This document shows positions 18,062 through 56,803 of a DNA stretch of 56,803 nt, piece by piece. Both the position numbers and the translations under genes were made by a program. The notes beneath the pieces are model-generated. The model did no database searches and was not told where the DNA came from. It was given only the letters and a program-made list of their open reading frames with translations. The DNA lies in the NCBI GenBank assembly GCA_903923135.1, contig CAIXWN010000215.1, positions 1 to 56,803 of the forward strand. Direction: 5' to 3'. Every line of letters begins with the position of its first letter. The first letter of the stretch is position 1. The stretch comes from an uncultured Caulobacteraceae bacterium (GTDB lineage: Bacteria > Pseudomonadota > Alphaproteobacteria > Caulobacterales > Caulobacteraceae).

Positions 18062-19312
18062 ATGCCCAGTCCAGGTCCCGCCGCCTTTCCCATCGACGCC
18101 GTCCGCGACCGGTTTCCCGCCCTGCGGCGGGCGTCGCCGTTCATCTATCTGGACAACGCCGCCGGGGCCCAGGCGCCGCGCATCGTGCTCGATGCGGTGG
18201 CGGGTCATCTGCTGGACTTCAACGTCCAGCGCGGGGGCCGCTATGCCCGCAGCGTCGAGGTCGACCGGGTGATCGACCGGGCGCGGCGGCAGGTGGCGAC
18301 CTTCCTTGGCGCCGACAATCCCGAGGAGGTGGCCTTTGGCATGAACGCCACCAGCTTCATGCGCCTGGTGAGCCTGGCCATCGGCCAGACCCTGACCGCA
18401 CCGCGCGACGAGATCGTGGTCACCGACCTGGACCACCACGCCAACATCTCAACCTGGCTGGACCTGGCCAGGACCGGGGCGGAGATCCGCTGGTGGCGCA
18501 TGCGCGAGGATCACCGCCTGCATGTGGAGGACCTAATTCCCCTGCTGTCGGAACGCACCCGGCTGGTGGCCTGCACGGTGGTCTCCCACGCCCTGGGCTC
18601 GCGGGTGGACGTGGCCGCCGTGGCCCGGGCGGCGCACGGCGTCGGCGCGGAGGTGTTCCTCGACTGCGTGCATTACAGCCCGCATGCACCGATCGATGTG
18701 AAGGCCTGGGACTGCGACTATCTGGTCTGCTCGGGCTACAAGGCCTTCGCGCCGCACATGGGCTTTCTGTGGGGAAAATTCGCCGCCCTGAGCGCCCTGC
18801 CGACCTTCCGCGAGGAATTCATCCCCGACGCCCCGCCGCACAAGATCGAGGCCGGCACCTTCATCTTCGAGAACGTCGCCGGCATGGCCGCGGCCGTGGA
18901 TTATCTGGAGGCGTTGGGGGCCGACCTCGACCCGGCCGCCGACACGCCGCGGGCGCGCGTCCTGGCCGCCATGGGCGGCGTCGAAGCCTATGAACAGCAC
19001 CTGTCGCGCCGGATGCTTTCGGCGCTCGCCGCCGCCGGGGCGACGGTCTACGGCGTGACAAATCCCAACGGGGTCCACCTGCGCGTGCCCACCTTCACTT
19101 TCAACCTGCCCGGCGTCGAGCCGGCGACGGTGGCGCAGGCGATGGCCGACGCCCAGATCGGCATCCGCGACGGCCACATGTACGCGCCGCGGCTGATGGA
19201 CCGCCTGGGCCTGGCCATGGCCACGGGGGCGGCGCGGGCCTCGCTGGTTCACTACAACACCTCAGAGGAGATCGACCGCTTCGGCGAGACCCTGCGGCGC
19301 CTGTCCGCCTAG
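18062..19312 (+). CDS. Cysteine-desulfurase-like PLP enzyme (TIGR01976-type) lacking the catalytic Cys
   Basis: A 416-aa class V aminotransferase-fold enzyme. PFIYLDNAAGAQ is the family N-terminus, EIVVTDLDHHANI the substrate loop, and Lys227 in CSGYKAFAPHMG the PLP Schiff-base lysine. True SufS/CsdA/IscS enzymes carry a catalytic Cys late in the chain (RxGHHCA). Here the equivalent stretch is IRDGHMYAPRLMDRLGL, with no Cys. That matches the TIGR01976 'cysteine desulfurase-like' group, whose reaction is not settled. No SufE or scaffold gene is nearby. It probably acts on an amino acid by lyase or aminotransfer chemistry rather than supplying sulfur. Confidence 0.85.
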   Translation: MPSPGPAAFPIDAVRDRFPALRRASPFIYLDNAAGAQAPRIVLDAVAGHLLDFNVQRGGRYARSVEVDRVIDRARRQVATFLGADNPEEVAFGMNATSFMRLVSLAIGQTLTAPRDEIVVTDLDHHANISTWLDLARTGAEIRWWRMREDHRLHVEDLIPLLSERTRLVACTVVSHALGSRVDVAAVARAAHGVGAEVFLDCVHYSPHAPIDVKAWDCDYLVCSGYKAFAPHMGFLWGKFAALSALPTFREEFIPDAPPHKIEAGTFIFENVAGMAAAVDYLEALGADLDPAADTPRARVLAAMGGVEAYEQHLSRRMLSALAAAGATVYGVTNPNGVHLRVPTFTFNLPGVEPATVAQAMADAQIGIRDGHMYAPRLMDRLGLAMATGAARASLVHYNTSEEIDRFGETLRRLSA

Positions 19313-31545: not shown

Positions 31546-32358
31546 TCAGCCGCCGGGACCCTCGCCGGCGGCGAGGCGCCGCTCGATGTCGGCCAGGACG
31601 CCAGGCAGGTCGGCGACCGTGTCGATGACATAGTCGGCGCCCGCCGCCCTCAGCGCCGCGGCGGATGTCGCCGTCCGCCGCGCCCTGTCCTCGTCGGTCA
31701 ACGCCCTCCAGGCGGACAGGCCCAGTCCGACCCCGTTGCCGGACGCCGCCAGACCGACGCTCCAGGCCCCTGCCGCCACGCCTTCGGCGACACCGACCTC
31801 GGCGTCGTCGATCTTGACGCAGGCCTTCACCGGCCAGGCGCGCAGGTCGGACAGCACCTTCCACATCATCAGCGGGGTGGGCCGGCCTGCGGCGGTCTCG
31901 CCGCTGCAGACCACCACATCCGGCGCATAGCCCTGGGCGGCGGCCAGGGGCAGGATATCGGCCATCATCGCCCGGGTGTAGCCGGTGGAGGAACCGATCC
32001 GGACGCCGCGGGCGCGCAATCCGGCGATGACCTCGGCCGCACCGGGAATGAGTTCCGAATGGATCGCGGCGGCGGCCCGCATCAGCGGCTCGAGCGCCTC
32101 ATGCAGGCGATCGACGTCCGCCTCGCCGGCCGCCGAGCCGTGGGCGGCGAGCCAGGCGCCGCCCACCCGCGGGTCGGCCAGCAGGGCGCGCAAATGGTCC
32201 CGTTTGGCCATACCCATGTCGCGGCGCGCCTCGGCCTCGCTGATGGTCACGCCTTCGACGGCGAAGGCGGTGAGCAGGGCCTCCACCGGCGCCACACAGC
32301 CGAAATCCACCATGGTGCCGGCCCAGTCGAACACCACAGCCGCTATCGTCGAGGTCAT
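31546..32358 (-). CDS. phnX: Phosphonoacetaldehyde hydrolase
   Basis: A 270-aa HAD-superfamily enzyme that cleaves phosphonoacetaldehyde to acetaldehyde and phosphate. VFDWAGTMVDFG carries the nucleophile Asp11. MGMAKRDHL carries Lys52, the Schiff-base lysine that sets phosphonatase apart from other HAD enzymes. IGSSTGYTRAMM is motif II, and KIDDAEVGVAEG supplies the Mg-binding Asp residues. ATG overlaps the stop of the upstream FAD oxidoreductase by 4 nt, so the two are translationally coupled. Together they would take an aminoethylphosphonate-type compound to phosphate. Confidence 0.95.
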   Translation of the reverse strand: MTSTIAAVVFDWAGTMVDFGCVAPVEALLTAFAVEGVTISEAEARRDMGMAKRDHLRALLADPRVGGAWLAAHGSAAGEADVDRLHEALEPLMRAAAAIHSELIPGAAEVIAGLRARGVRIGSSTGYTRAMMADILPLAAAQGYAPDVVVCSGETAAGRPTPLMMWKVLSDLRAWPVKACVKIDDAEVGVAEGVAAGAWSVGLAASGNGVGLGLSAWRALTDEDRARRTATSAAALRAAGADYVIDTVADLPGVLADIERRLAAGEGPGG

Positions 32359-33497
32359 AGGCCCGTATCTCCCAAAGGGGTGTCAAACAGTTCGCCGATC
32401 ACCTCCTCGGCGATGGCGAAGGCGGTGGAGGCCCCGGTGCCGCTGGTCACCATGACCAGTCGGACAGCGGGGGCCGGGGTGTCGGCGAACATGGCGCCGG
32501 CGGCGCTGGAATAGACGCCGGTCCACCGCTCGATGACTGCTGGCGGCGCCAGGCCGGTGGCGGCGGCGTATTCACCGAGGATAATATCTTCCACCGCCCG
32601 GGGGGCGAAGGGGTCGGGCGTGTCGCCGTAGTGGTGACTGTCGCCTACCACCAGCGTGCCATCGGCGCTCTGGGTGACGATTAGATGCACCCCGTTGGCC
32701 AGGGCCTCGGCGTGCCGGGCCTCGAGGTGGCGGCGGAGGGCTGCGGCGGGCGGCAGTTCGGCGTAGCCCAGATAGCGGATGAGGCCCAGGTCGCTCATCA
32801 GAGCGGCGGGCAGGCGGAAGCCCGGGTCGGCCAGGCGCAGCATGCTCAGGCGGCAGCGGGTGACGGCGCGGGCGGCGATGGCGTCCGGAAAAAGGGTGAC
32901 CAGGTCGTCCCCCGGGCAGACGACCGCTGCGGCTGCGGCCACCGTCCCGCGTGAGGTGCGGATCGACGGCGGGGAGACCTCCAGAACCGCGGTCGAGGTC
33001 CTGAACTCGACGCCCCAGCGGCCCTCCAGCCAACGGCGCAGCGCCGGGATGGCCAGGCGCGACTCCACGCGGATCTCATGCGGGCTATGGAGCGCCCCGA
33101 GGCCGTCCGCCGGGCGAAGGGCGGGGCAGCGGCGGCCAAGTTCGGTAGCGTTGAGCCGCTCGCAGCCTTCGCCCATTTCGGTGGCCAGGAAGGCGTCGAC
33201 GATTTCGGCCGCCTCTCGGCTGCGAATCGTGAGCAGCAGCCCGCGGTGCTCGATGGCCACCCCGGCAGCGGGCGCCGCGGCCGACCAAAGGTCTCGCGAA
33301 CGGCGGGCCCGCCGCCAGACGTCTCCGCGCTGCTGCCCGGTGACGGTGACGAAGCCGAAGTTGCGGATGGAGGCGCCATTGGCCTGCGAATCGCGTTCGA
33401 TCACGACGACGCGCTTGCCCAGCCTTGCGGCCGCCCAGGCGTGCGCCAGCCCGACAATGCCGGAGCCGACCACCGCCAGATCGTAAGTCTGCTCCAT
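32355..33497 (-). CDS. FAD-dependent oxidoreductase of the phosphonate-linked TIGR03364 (PbfD) type
   Basis: 380 aa, DAO/glycine-oxidase fold. LAVVGSGIVGLAHAWAAAR is the FAD fold, VVIERDSQANGASIRNFGFV the family signature found in this phosphonate-associated group, and RWTGVYSSAAGAMFADTP the late FAD loop. It is translationally coupled to phnX. Known family members are reported to oxidise aminoethylphosphonate or its N-methyl form to phosphonoacetaldehyde, which is exactly the phnX substrate. No phnW transaminase or phosphonate ABC transporter is adjacent. Substrate assignment is an inference from coupling and family. Confidence 0.85.
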   Translation of the reverse strand: MEQTYDLAVVGSGIVGLAHAWAAARLGKRVVVIERDSQANGASIRNFGFVTVTGQQRGDVWRRARRSRDLWSAAAPAAGVAIEHRGLLLTIRSREAAEIVDAFLATEMGEGCERLNATELGRRCPALRPADGLGALHSPHEIRVESRLAIPALRRWLEGRWGVEFRTSTAVLEVSPPSIRTSRGTVAAAAAVVCPGDDLVTLFPDAIAARAVTRCRLSMLRLADPGFRLPAALMSDLGLIRYLGYAELPPAAALRRHLEARHAEALANGVHLIVTQSADGTLVVGDSHHYGDTPDPFAPRAVEDIILGEYAAATGLAPPAVIERWTGVYSSAAGAMFADTPAPAVRLVMVTSGTGASTAFAIAEEVIGELFDTPLGDTGL

Positions 33498-35765: not shown

Positions 35766-37244
35766 TCAGCCGCCCGCCCGCCGTTGGGCCAGGGCGTCGC
35801 GGATCTGCTCGTGATCGTCGCGGCCGCGGCGATAGCGCAGCAGTACCATCACCGAGACGGCCGTGATCAGAGAGGCGCCGGGTCCGTAGAGCAGGCCAAG
35901 GTTGCGGATGGCTTCCGGCGGGATCAGGTGCGGCGCCGCGCCGCTGACCGCCAGGCCATGCGGAAAGCCGATGAGATCCAGCACCAGGCCCGCGATCAGC
36001 GCGCCCACGCCGCTGGACGCCTTGGCCGACAGGCTGATGCCGGCGAAGTAGAGGCCCTCGCGCCGGGCCCCGAACAGGTGCTCGTGTTCGTCTGCGGCGT
36101 CGGCCATCATCGACTGGAAGCCGATGAGGGCGGCGCTCGCCCCCACGCCCCCCAGACCCGATGCGGTGATCAGGACAGGGACCTCGCCGCCATGAGGGAT
36201 CAGTCCGGCGACCTTGAGGGCCGCCGGCAGCAGCTGGCAGAGTCCGATCAGGCTGATGCCGCAGAGGGCGATGATCCGCTTCTCCAGTCCGCGCGCCAGC
36301 ACCCCGGCGACGAACACCCCGACCAGCACCCCGACGGTATAGGTCAGGGTGATGATCAGGATGGCCTGGCTCTGCAACTTCCAGAAATAGGTATTGGCGT
36401 GGAGGGTGAGCGCGGCGGCGGCGCCCAGGGCGACGAACAGGATCAGACAGGCCGAGAACAGGGTGCGGAACGAGGCGTTCTGGAAGACCTCGCGGACCTC
36501 GGCGACGAAGCTGCTCAGCCCCCCGCCGTCGGTCGGGGCGGCGTGCAGCCGCCCGCGCGCGCCCAGGGTGCCAATGGTGCTGATTCCGGCGGCCAGAAGG
36601 ACAAGGACGCCGCAGCTGATGGCGAAGGGCGGATAGGCGTCGCGGTGGCCCTGGCCGCCGGGCCCCTTCATGAACACACCGAAGGCGAGGAAGGCGGCCA
36701 CCGCTCCGGCCACGACACTGAACAACACCCGCGAGGCGACGATGGTGGAGCGTTCGGCGTAGTCGTCGCTCAGTTCGGCGCCCAGGGCGATGTAGGGCAC
36801 GCCGAAGCCGGACAGGCCGATGCGCACGGCCAGGAGGGCGATCAGGGCCCAGGCGAACAGGCCGGCGCCCGAGAGTCCGGCCGGGATCGAGAACAGCAGG
36901 AAGAAGGCGACGACGATGGGGATGGCGCTGGCCGCCATCCAGGGGTGCCGGCGGCCGTGACGCGAGCGGCTGTTGTCCGACAGGGATCCAACCAGAGGGT
37001 CGATGAAGGCGTCCACCACCAGCGCCAGACCCAGGGCCAGACCCGCCGCCGAGCCGGAGAGGCCGCAGACGATGGTGAGGTAGAACAGCAGCAGGGTGTT
37101 GAGGCCGAAATTGGCGGTGTCGGCGACGATCGACCCGGCGCCGTAGGCGGTCAGGGAGGCCAGCCCCAGCCGGCCCGAGCGCTCGGTGTGATTGGCGGAG
37201 GCGGACGTAGCTGGCCTTTCGGCCGGCTGTGCGACGGCGGTCAT
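35766..37244 (-). CDS. GPH-family MFS transporter (sugar:cation symporter type)
   Basis: 492 aa with 12 helices. ALVVDAFIDPLVGSLSDNS, with the DAFIDP motif, followed by RSRHGRRHPWMAASAIP, is the GPH/MelB signature. TAYGAGSIVADTANFGLNTLLLF is TM1. In alphaproteobacteria such carriers move glycosides or other polar compounds. It is downstream on the same strand of a phosphotriesterase-like gene (103 nt gap), so it may import that enzyme's substrate; this is an inference. Confidence 0.88.
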   Translation of the reverse strand: MTAVAQPAERPATSASANHTERSGRLGLASLTAYGAGSIVADTANFGLNTLLLFYLTIVCGLSGSAAGLALGLALVVDAFIDPLVGSLSDNSRSRHGRRHPWMAASAIPIVVAFFLLFSIPAGLSGAGLFAWALIALLAVRIGLSGFGVPYIALGAELSDDYAERSTIVASRVLFSVVAGAVAAFLAFGVFMKGPGGQGHRDAYPPFAISCGVLVLLAAGISTIGTLGARGRLHAAPTDGGGLSSFVAEVREVFQNASFRTLFSACLILFVALGAAAALTLHANTYFWKLQSQAILIITLTYTVGVLVGVFVAGVLARGLEKRIIALCGISLIGLCQLLPAALKVAGLIPHGGEVPVLITASGLGGVGASAALIGFQSMMADAADEHEHLFGARREGLYFAGISLSAKASSGVGALIAGLVLDLIGFPHGLAVSGAAPHLIPPEAIRNLGLLYGPGASLITAVSVMVLLRYRRGRDDHEQIRDALAQRRAGG

Positions 37245-37347
37245 TCTTGCCCTCCCAGGCGCGCCGCCTTCACGCAGGCGGTCCCTTCCTGCTTAGGGGC
37301 GGGCGGGCCGATCGCAAAGTTACATTCTGCTCAGGACGGAGCCGGCT

Positions 37348-38322
37348 TCAGACCCCCTTGGCCGCCTCGGCGAACCAGCGGCGCGGATTGTCGATGACGA
37401 TGCCGTCCAGGACCTCGTCGGTCATGCCCATGCGCTTCAGTTCGGGAAAGATGTTCTCGAACAGGTGCGTCATGCGCCAGTTGGGGAGGGTCTTCTGCAG
37501 GTCGGCCGGATCACCGCCGGCATAGCTGCCCAGCCAGCAGTTGACGGTGTCGTGGCTGACCATCAACCGATCCTTGTGGCCGCAGTCGACCAGGGCCTTG
37601 AGGTTCTTCATGCGGATGGCGTCGGAGATCATCATCTCCAGGCCGAAACGATCGAACCCGACATAGGCGCCGCGGTCGGCAAGGGCCTTCTGATAGTCAT
37701 GGTCGTCGCGGCCGTCGCTGTGGCCGACGATCATGTGCGAGGCCGGCAGGCCCTCGCCGGTGACGATGTCGATCTGGTCATGCCCGCAGGAGCAGTTCTC
37801 GGTGTGCGAGATCAGCGGCGCGCCAGTCAGCTTTGCCGCCTTGGCCGCGGCGGTCAGCACCTTGCGCTCATAGTCCGAGACCAGGCCGTCGCCTGTGGCG
37901 ATCTTGATCACCCCACAGCGGATGCCGGTCGCGGCCACCCCGTCCTCGATCTCCTTCTGGAAGCACTCGGCGATCTGGTCCACCGAGAGCCCCTCGAAGG
38001 TGTAGGGAATTCCCATGGCCTCCACATAGGCGCCGGTGGCGCAGATGAGTGTCACGCCGCTCTTCTGGGAGACCTCGGCGATCACCTCGACGTCGCGGCC
38101 GAGATCCATGGGGCAGGGATCGATGACGGTCTTCACCCCGTAGGCGTGCAACTGCTGGAAGGCGTCGACGCAGCGGGACACGGCCTCGCGGCGGTCGTAC
38201 GCAGGCATGCGGGCGTCCATGAACCACCCCGGGAAGCCCACCAGCACGTGCTCGTGGATGAGGGTGCGGCCGAGGTCGGCGGCGCTGCGCACGCCCTGAA
38301 CGGTGTTCACCTGCGTGGTCAT
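37348..38322 (-). CDS. Phosphotriesterase-family (PTE/PLL) metal hydrolase
   Basis: 324 aa, amidohydrolase-type TIM barrel. LIHEHVLVGFP contributes the His-x-His pair, GVIKIATG the bridging carbamylated Lys, ISHTENCSCGHDQ and IVGHSDGRDDHDY the later His, and MVSHDTVNCW the catalytic Asp. This fits PTE-related lactonases and phosphotriesterases. ATG 38322 was chosen because GGGAGG lies just before it; an upstream frame extension has no family likeness. It is cytoplasmic and may work with the GPH transporter. Native substrate unknown. Confidence 0.9.
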   Translation of the reverse strand: MTTQVNTVQGVRSAADLGRTLIHEHVLVGFPGWFMDARMPAYDRREAVSRCVDAFQQLHAYGVKTVIDPCPMDLGRDVEVIAEVSQKSGVTLICATGAYVEAMGIPYTFEGLSVDQIAECFQKEIEDGVAATGIRCGVIKIATGDGLVSDYERKVLTAAAKAAKLTGAPLISHTENCSCGHDQIDIVTGEGLPASHMIVGHSDGRDDHDYQKALADRGAYVGFDRFGLEMMISDAIRMKNLKALVDCGHKDRLMVSHDTVNCWLGSYAGGDPADLQKTLPNWRMTHLFENIFPELKRMGMTDEVLDGIVIDNPRRWFAEAAKGV

Positions 38323-38466
38323 CTGGAACCTCCCATGAATTGACGAGGCGCAGGCGTCGAGGCCCGGCCCAGCGTGTGTTTTCGAGCCGGGCGATGGCGC
38401 CGTCAAGGCGCGGATGTCGGAAAAATTAGAACTTGTTTCGATTATTTCCCGAAAGGGCCACCGCTC

Positions 38467-54474: not shown

Positions 54475-55950
54475 ATGAACATCCTGCTGATCACCCTGGA
54501 CCAGTTCCGCGGCGACTGCCTGTCCGCGGCGGGCCATCCGGCGGTGAAGACACCGAACCTCGACCGCGTGGCGGCGGAGGGCGTGCGGCTGGGGCGTCAC
54601 TACAGCCAGGCCGCGCCGTGCAGTCCGGGCCGGGCCAGCCTGTACACCGGCCTCTATCAGATGAATCACCGGGTGGTGGGAAATGGCACGCCGCTGGATC
54701 GGCGGTTCGACAATCTCGCCCATGCGGCGCGGCGGGCAGGCTATGCGCCCACCCTGTTCGGCTACACCGACCAGAGCGTCGACCCGCGCGAGACCACGGG
54801 GCCCGACGATCCCCGTCTGCTGAGCTATGAGGAGATCCTGCCCGGGTTCGATGTCGGCCTGCGTCTGACGGCTGGAGATCCGGCGCCGTGGATGAGCTGG
54901 CTGCGCGCCCTCGGACACCGGATTCCGGACGCGCCAGACGCCGTGCTGGCCGGCGAGCCGGAGCGGCCGGCGGAGCACAGCATGTCGGCTTTCCTCACCG
55001 ATGGGTTCCTTGAGTGGCTGAACCGCCAGAAGCGGCCTTGGTTCGCCCACCTCAGCCAGTTCCGGCCGCACCCTCCCTATGCCGCCGCCGGCCATTTCTC
55101 GACGATGTACGATCCGGCCGACATGCCCGCGCCGATCACCCCGGCGGCGGATCGTCATCGGCTGCACGAGATCCTCACCCACCACCCTCACCTTAAGGTT
55201 CCCGCCGACGAAGCCGGGATGCGGCGCGCCCAGGCGCAATATTTCGGCATGGTCAGCGAGGCCGACCATCAGCTGGGCCGGGTATGGGCGGCGCTGGAGG
55301 CGCGGGGCGAGTGGGACGACACCTTCATCCTGGTCACCGCCGACCACGCCGAGCAGCTGGGCGACCACGGCCTGATGGGGAAGGCCGGCTTCTTCGAGCA
55401 GAGCTACCATATCCTTGGCCTTGTGCGGGACCCGCGCCCCGGTTCGGCGCGCGGCGCGGTGGTCGAGGCGTTCACGGAGAATGTCGATATCTTCCCCACA
55501 CTCTGCGAGGCGATGGCCATCGAGGTGCCGACGCAGTGCGACGGCGTACCTCTGACACCGTTCCTGCGCGGCGAGGCGCCGCCGTGGTGGCGCCAGGCGG
55601 CGCACTGGGAATGGGACTGGCGCGACAGCCTGATCGCCTCGGGCCCGCACCCCTGGCCGTGGGACCGCCGACTGGAGCGACAGAACCTGTGCGTGCGCCG
55701 TGGCGAGACCGCGGCCTATGTGCACTTCGCCGATGGGAGCTGGTTGTGCTTCGATCTGGCGTCGGACCCCACCTGGCGCACCCAGATCAGCAGTCCGGCG
55801 GTGGTTCTGGAGCAGGCCCAGGCGCTTTTGACTTGGCGGGCGCGCCACGCTGATCGTACCCTCACGGGCATGCTGGTGGAGGGCGGCGGGATCGGACGCT
55901 GGCCGGTCATGCCGGCCGACTGGAAAGATGGCGCCCATGCCGCCGGGTGA
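54475..55950 (+). CDS. Phosphonate monoester hydrolase-like (sulfatase-fold) enzyme
   Basis: 491 aa, alkaline-phosphatase superfamily. LLITLDQFRGDCLSAAGH holds the metal-binding Asp, and CSPGRASLYTG has the CxPxR signature (Cys49, Arg53), where Cys would be converted to formylglycine. The chain also shares with PehA-type phosphonate monoester hydrolases GLYQMNHRVV, YTDQSVDPRETTG, LSQFRPHPPY, HAEQLGDHGLMGKAGFFEQSY and the ending HADRTLT. These cleave phosphonate or phosphate mono- and diesters. GGGGAGGG precedes the ATG. It is the first gene of an overlapping operon with a PhnZ-like oxygenase, which supports the phosphonate assignment. Confidence 0.85.
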   Translation: MNILLITLDQFRGDCLSAAGHPAVKTPNLDRVAAEGVRLGRHYSQAAPCSPGRASLYTGLYQMNHRVVGNGTPLDRRFDNLAHAARRAGYAPTLFGYTDQSVDPRETTGPDDPRLLSYEEILPGFDVGLRLTAGDPAPWMSWLRALGHRIPDAPDAVLAGEPERPAEHSMSAFLTDGFLEWLNRQKRPWFAHLSQFRPHPPYAAAGHFSTMYDPADMPAPITPAADRHRLHEILTHHPHLKVPADEAGMRRAQAQYFGMVSEADHQLGRVWAALEARGEWDDTFILVTADHAEQLGDHGLMGKAGFFEQSYHILGLVRDPRPGSARGAVVEAFTENVDIFPTLCEAMAIEVPTQCDGVPLTPFLRGEAPPWWRQAAHWEWDWRDSLIASGPHPWPWDRRLERQNLCVRRGETAAYVHFADGSWLCFDLASDPTWRTQISSPAVVLEQAQALLTWRARHADRTLTGMLVEGGGIGRWPVMPADWKDGAHAAG

Positions 55951-56512
55951 GATCACCACCGGAGCATTCGACGGCCTGGCCGACCTCGAAACCGCACTCT
56001 GGGAGATGGGGCGAACGCCGTCAGACGAAACGCCCGACATGACCGAACTCGACCATGGCCTGCAATGCGCCGCCGAGCTCAAGTCGGCCGCGCCAGACGA
56101 CGTCGGGCTGCAGATCGCCGGCCTGGTGCACGACATCGGTCACGGCCGCACCCATATCCGCGACCATGGCTGGGCCGGCGCCGAAGCCGTGCGTGGCGTG
56201 CTGGGCCGGCGGGTCGCCGAGCTTGTGGGCCTTCACATCGACGCCAAGCGCTACTTGGTCACCACCGACACGGCCTACCGGGCCCGCCTCTCGCCGGTGA
56301 GCATCCAGACCCTGGCCCTGCAGGGCGGTGATCTTTCGGCCGAGGAGGTCGCCCGTTTCGAGGCCTGGCCCCACTGGCGCGAAGCCCTGCGTCTGCGTCG
56401 GGCCGACGAGGCGGCCAAGACCCCCGGACGCGACGTGCCGGGCCTGTCGTCCTGGCTTCCGGCGCTGAGGGCCGTCGCCGCGGCGCAGACAGGCGCTCAG
56501 CCATGGGCGTGA
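55928..56512 (+). CDS. PhnZ-type HD-domain phosphonate oxygenase (TIGR03276-like)
   Basis: 194 aa. The metal ligands of this HD oxygenase type are all visible: His43 (LDHGLQCAAEL), His68-Asp69 (LVHDIGHG), His80 (HGWAGAEAV), His103 (GLHIDAKRYL) and Asp160 (LRRADEAAK). Lys107 four residues after His103 is typical. LQGGDLSAEEVARFEAWP also fits the phosphonate-degradation HD group. Such enzymes use a mixed-valence di-iron centre to oxidise alpha-hydroxyphosphonates and release phosphate. The usual GGExYxGE substrate-gating element before the first His is not visible. The start at 55928 overlaps the previous gene by 23 nt; 55937 is an alternative. Confidence 0.82.
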   Translation: MAPMPPGEITTGAFDGLADLETALWEMGRTPSDETPDMTELDHGLQCAAELKSAAPDDVGLQIAGLVHDIGHGRTHIRDHGWAGAEAVRGVLGRRVAELVGLHIDAKRYLVTTDTAYRARLSPVSIQTLALQGGDLSAEEVARFEAWPHWREALRLRRADEAAKTPGRDVPGLSSWLPALRAVAAAQTGAQPWA

Positions 56513-56803
56513 TCACCGTCGCCTGGGACGATCCCGCCCTCGTCATTGAAGGCGCCTTCGAACTTCGCAGCACGCCCGACGGCGTCATGCCCCGGCGGCT
56601 GCCGGCGTGGACCGCCGCCCAGATGCCCGATCCCGCCCTCGATCTGATGGCGGCCATGCCGTCGGGCGTCAGGCTGGTGTTCCGCGCCGAGGCGCGACGA
56701 ATCGAGCTGGACGTTCTGGAAACCGGCCTGAAGTTCAAGGGCGCGCCGCGTCGCACAGCCGCCTTCGACCTGTTTGTCGACGGCGAACTCTTCGAACGTC
56801 ACC
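56503..56803 (+). CDS. SGNH/GDSL-type hydrolase, N-terminal domain (partial, runs off the window)
   Basis: Only the first 100 codons are present. RRLPAWTAAQMPDPALDLM and MPSGVRLVFRAEARRIELDV match the beta-sandwich N-terminal domain found before SGNH hydrolase domains of the SsfX3/acyl-hydrolase type. The catalytic GDS block would lie beyond the window. ATG overlaps the HD gene by 10 nt, so it is translationally coupled to the phosphonate genes. It may deacylate an ester-bound phosphonate; this is an inference. Confidence 0.7.
   Translation, partial: MGVITVAWDDPALVIEGAFELRSTPDGVMPRRLPAWTAAQMPDPALDLMAAMPSGVRLVFRAEARRIELDVLETGLKFKGAPRRTAAFDLFVDGELFERH

Follow-up and report, generated by a model that had tools for sequence, protein, structure and literature searches.

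A conserved PMH-HD-SGNH gene cassette as a candidate route for phosphonate ester catabolism in an uncultured Caulobacteraceae bacterium

Phosphonate in dissolved organic matter occurs in part as esters of acylated polysaccharides, and its release from them is only postulated in the available part of the source (PMC5649143). For marine Sulfitobacter, the same partial text proposes that a phosphonate monoester hydrolase (PMH) and carbon-phosphorus (C-P) lyase together release and cleave the phosphonates of dissolved polysaccharides (PMC5649143). Four pathways of the PhnY/PhnZ type have also been described, and the accessible portion of that article mentions no ester-hydrolysing first step (PMC10574752). 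Here, we describe a three-gene cassette at the right end of a 56,803-nucleotide stretch of DNA (hereafter the window), which is contig CAIXWN010000215.1 (C215) of the 4.64-Mb, 98% complete genome of an uncultured Caulobacteraceae bacterium (assembly GCA_903923135.1). The cassette encodes a PMH-like hydrolase, an HD-domain protein and an SGNH esterase. We found no description of this trio, or of ester hydrolysis joined to oxidative C-P cleavage, in the open-licence literature searched, which is weak evidence of absence.

The likeness to Sulfitobacter lies in the proposed order of events, with a PMH or alkaline-phosphatase-like enzyme freeing the phosphonate from its ester and another enzyme then breaking the C-P bond. 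In Sulfitobacter the second enzyme is C-P lyase and methane or ethylene is formed, whereas in the cassette it would be an O2-dependent HD enzyme; a search that did detect the E. coli control gave no match to the C-P lyase protein PhnJ in the genome of the window. In contrast to the PhnY/PhnZ-type pathways, no hydroxylase partner was seen in alphaproteobacterial cassettes. The cassette offers candidate enzymes for each release step without C-P lyase, and its predicted products are phosphate and formate or glycine in place of methane.

The cassette and its conservation

We confirmed that three overlapping open reading frames (ORFs) lie on the + strand within positions 54475 to 56803, at the coordinates given by an earlier first-pass annotation of the window, and assigned them to the Sulfatase, HD and SsfX3_N families, respectively. 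The features of the cassette are as follows.

54475 to 55950, + strand: PMH-like hydrolase of the alkaline phosphatase superfamily, 491 amino acids (Pfam Sulfatase, 4.7e-44; PDB 4uph, 6.1e-124)
55928 to 56512, + strand: HD-domain enzyme resembling mixed-valent diiron oxygenases, from a YxxE-less clade, 194 amino acids (TIGR03276, fold and metal ligands)
56503 to 56803, + strand: 5' part of the SGNH esterase gene, with the SsfX3 N-terminal domain, 100 amino acids, frame open at the window end
Contig C176, positions 1 to 933 of locus L004: remainder of the SGNH gene, with Lipase_GDSL Pfam families in this part; 383 amino acids for the whole protein

The PMH and HD ORFs overlap by 23 nucleotides, with a later HD start possible, and the HD and SGNH ORFs overlap by 10 nucleotides. 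The last 82 bases of the window are identical to the start of contig C176 of the same genome, and the SGNH frame that is cut by the window end runs on in C176 to L004:933. Genome G015 carries the PMH, HD, SGNH and nitrile hydratase genes in the same order on a single contig, which supports the junction between C215 and C176.

We then scanned a genome collection with two peptide patterns derived from six HD proteins and analyzed the best 80 loci of a longer list, a procedure that favours the subfamily of the cassette HD protein. A PMH gene of the window type adjoined the HD gene in 14 of the 80 loci (15/81 counting the window). Nineteen of the 80 loci were alphaproteobacterial, or 20 with the window. 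Of these 20, 13 had a PMH gene next to the HD gene, 4 a gene for an NPP-type phosphodiesterase no more than 5 kb away, 2 an adjacent gene for the phosphonate lyase PbfA and 1 (L102) none of these. Of the checks that the first-pass annotation had suggested, rightward extension completed the SGNH gene on C176, and comparison of neighbourhoods showed that the PMH gene recurs. The NPP-type gene was directly adjacent to the HD gene in one of its four loci (L123), and the named isolate Caulobacter vibrioides OR37 (L113) carries a related cassette where an NPP-type phosphodiesterase stands in for the PMH. Nine of the 13 PMH-HD loci from Alphaproteobacteria had an SGNH gene 3' of the HD gene, and three of the four NPP loci had one about 2.5 kb from it, making SGNH a less constant partner than PMH. 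All 12 relatives that we tabulated have a possible HD start 4 to 14 nucleotides inside the PMH gene, and the 8 with an SGNH gene have a possible SGNH start 1 to 4 nucleotides inside the HD gene; other start codons are possible in both cases. PMH and HD form one uninterrupted frame in L110, while the PMH frame is broken in L107 and L122 and cut by a contig end in L104. The PMH-HD(-SGNH) grouping is conserved, and PMH and HD adjoin more often than chance would explain, as a comparison with ordinary PMH loci shows below.

To control for the use of HD patterns, we examined genomes that were not chosen by HD. Of 299 genomes from the order, three (G000, G093 and G294) had close PMHs (E value of at most 1e-60), and two of these three adjoined an HD gene. 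In the class (385 genomes), PMHs with an E value of at most 1e-80 were present in a further 57 genomes and were at most 51% identical among the matches listed. The HD gene was absent from the flanks (up to 1.5 kb) of all 29 best-scoring ordinary PMH loci, five of which were short on one side owing to contig ends. Coupling to the HD gene is therefore a trait of a single PMH clade, in which one member forms an exception.

The encoded proteins

Sequence comparison of the PMH-like protein with the PDB ranked 4uph, 2vqr, 2w8s and 4upk first (6.1e-124 to 5e-77), followed by two chains named sulfatase family proteins, 4upl and 4upi, and then by a choline sulfatase (1.7e-31). The chains 2w8s and 4upk are named as PMHs, and we take 2vqr and 4uph to be PMHs in character, though the PDB lists both as sulfatases. 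Among solved structures, the product of the sulfatase-fold gene is thus nearer to PMH-type chains than to arylsulfatases or choline sulfatases. The best NCBIfam model was PehA, with 411.9 bits against a curated cut-off of 900. With the described PMHs (PehA, 2w8s, 4upk, 2vqr and 4uph) the cassette protein shares, by sequence, the fold, the CxPxR cysteine and the DQ, GYT and DH..K motifs; it differs from them in forming a separate clade that is linked to the HD gene. The CxPxR cysteine aligns with a position that reads Ala in 2vqr and 4uph, presumably a modified residue. C49, P51, R53, D9, Q10, Y97, H199, D290, H291 and K303 are kept in 14/14 members of the PMH clade and T98 in 13/14, a set that leaves out L104 and L107. 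We assume that the CxPxR cysteine is converted to formylglycine and that the other residues have metal- or substrate-binding roles. No signal peptide was apparent in the PMH-like protein when judged by eye.

In a quick tree, the HD-linked PMHs and the PMH of G294 formed one clade (Shimodaira-Hasegawa-like approximate likelihood ratio test support of 100), apart from 28 ordinary PMHs. The first-pass annotation had held that grouping with arylsulfatases or phosphodiesterases without PhnZ neighbours would count against its pathway; instead, the closest chains were of the PMH type, and the clade comprises 13 HD-linked members and one without an HD gene. The tree takes in 13 of 15 HD-linked and 28 of 29 ordinary PMHs and has one very long row (L214); left out were L104, which a contig end cuts, L107, whose frame is broken, and L223, which offers no usable frame. 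As 12 of the 13 HD-linked PMHs in the tree were found through their HD gene, the linkage rate is biased upwards. At the G294 locus (L192, 4695 to 9607), the same-clade PMH gene lies beside genes for a TonB receptor and a LipL-like (beta-lactamase-like) serine esterase.

The HD protein matched Pfam HD (1.8e-6) and, by sequence, PhnZ and TmpB in the PDB. Its NCBIfam scores were all below the cut-offs: 120.9 bits for Phn-HD (TIGR03276; cut-off 214.6), 89.2 for TmpB (300) and 85.7 for PhnZ1 (300). An AlphaFold model with a predicted local distance difference test (pLDDT) score of 91.7 matched the folds of TmpB (1.9e-9) and PhnZ (2.9e-9), the best other match being 0.085. H43, H68, D69, H80, H103 and D160 make up the H...HD...H...H...D set of metal ligands, a set that some HD hydrolases share too. 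D69, H80, H103, R157 and D160 were invariant in 82/82 HD members, and H43, H68, K107, S125 and Q132 were present in 81/82. Along with the fold and the six ligands, K107, S125, Q132 and R157 are features held in common with PhnZ, TmpB and PhnZ1, to which the protein is 29 to 30% identical in structural alignment.

What sets the HD protein apart from PhnZ, TmpB and PhnZ1 is the absence of the YxxE loop, in which, according to the available part of the source, the Tyr caps one iron and the Glu contacts the amino group of the substrate (PMC8177086). In a profile alignment, PhnZ Y24 aligned with Ser in the HD protein, and the column of PhnZ E27 was unconserved in the subfamily. Of the 72 subfamily members in which the motif was located, 70 had no Tyr ahead of the first ligand, whereas one was present in 44/44 ordinary HD proteins with a located motif; 141 HD proteins had been collected, of which 20 with the motif unlocated and 5 duplicates were left out. 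The scan patterns did not cover the Tyr position, though they favoured the subfamily. A quick tree split the subfamily (82 members) from ordinary HD proteins (54) with a support of 100. Judged by its sequence, the HD protein belongs to a separate clade, and the earlier label of a PhnZ-type oxygenase is too strong: the fold and the six ligands agree with PhnZ and TmpB, but the loop is missing. E34, which is invariant in the 18 members of alignment A3 and present in only 40/82 of the wider set, may be a candidate replacement for the loop. A clade lacking the diagnostic loop of the known phosphonate oxygenases bears on the question of what the loop is for. An HD homologue in G003 (L021, 8007 to 8681), in which the HD motif reads YD and the next conserved histidine is changed, is probably decayed, and its degenerate motif led us not to use it as support. 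The genome of the window has a single HD match, that of the cassette.

The part of the SGNH protein encoded in the window matched Pfam SsfX3_N (2.9e-9) and no NCBIfam model. The Ser, Gly, Asn and Asp-x-x-His blocks are invariant in 9 aligned relatives and visible in the C176 continuation of the window protein. A model of the G015 orthologue (L100; pLDDT 88.7) was nearest in fold to SsfX3, then to a Bacteroides GDSL protein and then to CE2 carbohydrate esterases. The cassette SGNH protein shares with SsfX3 and the CE2 enzymes a two-domain fold and the conserved SGNH catalytic blocks, at an identity of 29% to SsfX3 and 11 to 18% to the CE2-type chains listed.

Proposed pathway and alternatives

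We propose, with a probability of roughly 0.56, that the locus is a cytoplasmic catabolic cassette for acylated esters of a phosphonate that is already alpha-hydroxylated. Gene order and its conservation, the overlaps, the folds, the catalytic residues and the phosphonate-related neighbours were observed; we infer the activities, the substrate, its import and the order of the steps as follows. Import would bring in a small phosphonate ester, acylated and probably sugar-like, from which the SGNH esterase would take off the acyl group. The PMH, as a candidate phosphonate monoesterase, would split the phosphonate monoester into an alcohol and the free phosphonate. The HD protein, as a PhnZ/TmpB-like, O2-dependent diiron enzyme, would then cleave the C-P bond of the alpha-hydroxyphosphonate to give phosphate and a carboxylic acid. 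As the alphaproteobacterial cassettes show no hydroxylase, the phosphonate set free by PMH should carry its alpha-hydroxyl group from the start; a 2-oxoglutarate hydroxylase partner was not found in the cassette of the window, and the best match of its genome to the methylphosphonate hydroxylase model scored 68.7 bits (cut-off 500). The substrate could be hydroxymethylphosphonate, yielding formate, or (R)-1-hydroxy-2-aminoethylphosphonate, yielding glycine. The missing amino-contacting Glu speaks for the former, and the PbfA-linked members of the clade, themselves without that Glu, speak for the latter.

The phosphonate context is backed by the genes for PbfA, phn-type LysR regulators and methylphosphonate-hydroxylase-like enzymes that neighbour the same HD subfamily. 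PbfA, scoring above its cut-off, lies beside HD genes of this clade in L128 and L129. A LysR at least 36% identical to that of Pseudaquidulcibacter occurs in 8 of the 20 alphaproteobacterial loci, and the best family of the four LysR proteins scanned was TIGR03339 (aminoethylphosphonate LysR), below its cut-off. PhyH enzymes are adjacent to the HD gene in 16 actinobacterial loci among the 80 scan loci; the two enzymes that we scanned had no match but to the methylphosphonate hydroxylase model, at 247 and 163 bits against a cut-off of 500. In L114 the PMH, HD and methylphosphonate-hydroxylase-like genes stand in a row, and such an actinobacterial version with a hydroxylase would begin from methylphosphonate esters. 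The HD gene of L175 lies beside genes for a PhnX-like protein (218.8 bits; cut-off 218.9) and HpnW (331 bits; cut-off 285). By eye, we recognised no adjacent phosphonate gene in five maps from the Nocardia/Streptomyces/Kribbella branch (L148, L151, L162, L165 and L167).

Genes for uptake were also found near relatives of the cassette. In L105 and L108 the cassette is extended by a MFS_2/GPH-type symporter gene 3' of SGNH and by a TonB receptor gene. DUF5690, a membrane family that we regard as a candidate phosphonate transporter, adjoins the HD gene in 5 of the 80 loci (L111, L113, L115, L128 and L129) and lies 4 kb off in a sixth (L123); no paper naming the family was found in the open-licence literature searched. 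We tentatively extend our proposal, at somewhat less than even odds, to a self-contained, methane-free system for mining phosphorus from acylated, phosphonate-decorated sugars or lipids, in which an esterase, a PMH and a new YxxE-less HD clade taking alpha-hydroxyphosphonate directly would be served by their own TonB receptor, sugar symporter or DUF5690 protein and LysR regulator.

Several observations weigh against the proposed pathway. The PMH of G294 belongs to the same clade and is 71% identical, yet has no HD gene beside it. Both actinobacterial PMH-HD loci lack SGNH, as do 4 of the 13 in Alphaproteobacteria. The cassette of the window has no adjoining LysR, TonB receptor or symporter gene, and the best TIGR03339 match of its genome, on another contig, scored 165 bits (cut-off 341). 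Most of the curated cut-offs in the argument were not reached, and the reaction of the HD protein may differ because its YxxE substrate-binding loop is absent. PMHs also act on sulfate esters. They hydrolyse phosphodiesters as well, according to the accessible part of the source (PMC5649143). The pathway sketched by the first-pass annotation therefore stands in part: the grouping with PMHs, the linkage to HD and the phosphonate-related neighbours agree with it, while the missing YxxE loop, the presence of PhnX and PhnW and the G294 locus qualify it.

PhnX and PhnW belong to a further set of phosphonate genes in this genome. Two overlapping genes form a second phosphonate module in the window, and its connection to the cassette is only putative.

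31546 to 32358, - strand: PhnX, phosphonoacetaldehyde hydrolase (TIGR01422, 330.9 bits; cut-off 220)
32355 to 33497, - strand: flavin adenine dinucleotide (FAD)-dependent oxidoreductase of TIGR03364 (HpnW_proposed; 400.9 bits, cut-off 285.1), overlapping phnX by 4 nucleotides

A PhnW transaminase is predicted on contig C264 (41335 to 42408, L232; 484 bits, cut-off 400.8), so that, on sequence evidence, both enzymes of the PhnW-PhnX aminoethylphosphonate route are encoded on separate contigs of the genome, besides the cassette. That PhnW is present as well as PhnX slightly lowers our confidence in the proposed pathway. A PhnW candidate in the window, the class-V enzyme at 18062 to 19309, was rejected as cysteine-desulfurase-like, its score with the PhnW-AepZ model being only 22 bits. 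The first-pass annotation, which listed no phnY, phnW or C-P lyase gene in the window, missed PhnX and the FAD oxidase there. The single genome match to PhnA (34 bits) was not convincing.

This second module figures in the alternative that we rate highest, although we consider it unlikely. In it, the cassette would be part of a wider aminophosphonate network with PhnX, HpnW and PhnW, the HD protein would take (R)-1-hydroxy-2-aminoethylphosphonate, and PMH and SGNH would only feed in aminophosphonates released from lipids or glycans. The PhnX-HpnW pair lies about 22 kb from the cassette both in the window and in G015, where PhnX is 72% and the adjacent FAD oxidoreductase 74% identical, and PhnW is in the genome. 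Of 27 loci retrieved around ordinary HD genes, 7 also have homologues of PhnX and HpnW within about 6 kb of that HD gene, the only HD match in the genome of the window being that of the cassette, and the PbfA-linked L128 and L129 fall in the same HD clade. Yet the modules are not one operon, PhnW and PhnX would degrade aminoethylphosphonate without the HD protein, and the actinobacterial partners resemble methylphosphonate hydroxylase. The amino-contacting glutamate of PhnZ and TmpB is not kept either, although the PbfA-linked members also lack it.

Next in order, and likewise improbable, is the alternative that the cassette handles a phosphate diester or a sulfate ester. The PMH would then be a phosphodiesterase, in keeping with the loci in which an NPP-type phosphodiesterase replaces it and with the PMH of G294, which has no HD gene; the HD protein, which like MIOX is without the YxxE loop, would be either a dinuclear phosphohydrolase or, resembling MIOX, a C-C oxygenase with the alcohol part as its substrate. 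Against this, the matches to the TmpB/PhnZ folds (about 2e-9) are some seven orders better than those to MIOX and HD hydrolases (about 0.1), and the neighbours of this HD clade include PbfA, phn-type LysR, PhnX-like, HpnW and methylphosphonate-hydroxylase-like genes. It is very unlikely that the cassette instead modifies a phosphonate natural product, with SGNH as an SsfX3-like acyltransferase: the salicylyl-acyltransferase SsfX3 is the best solved relative of SGNH, but catabolic-type receptors, symporters and regulators in related loci point to uptake, and none of the neighbours that we scanned or viewed was recognised as a biosynthesis gene, in work that included no search aimed at such genes.

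Other genes around the cassette

Downstream of SGNH, contig C176 carries nitrile hydratase genes, a transketolase pair and then EpmA, EpmB and EF-P genes, the last three named by eye. Directly 3' of SGNH, L004 952 to 2565 comprises nitrile hydratase alpha and beta genes and a beta-N-like accessory gene. We set nitrile hydratase aside as a pathway member, because it follows SGNH only in L100 (G015) among the 80 scan loci, and in the genome of the window. The transketolase pair was rejected, as the G015 stretch has no match to it.

In L157 (2598 to 4222), from an actinobacterial metagenome-assembled genome, an HD gene of the same clade and a phosphodiesterase-like gene with a weak match to the PhnA model (26.8 bits) stand back to back. 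In the window itself, the part between the two phosphonate modules (35769 to 38406, - strand) encodes a GPH-type sugar symporter, at 155.6 bits against a cut-off of 231, as well as a phosphotriesterase-like hydrolase, which scored 168.5 bits with the OPH model against a cut-off of 500.

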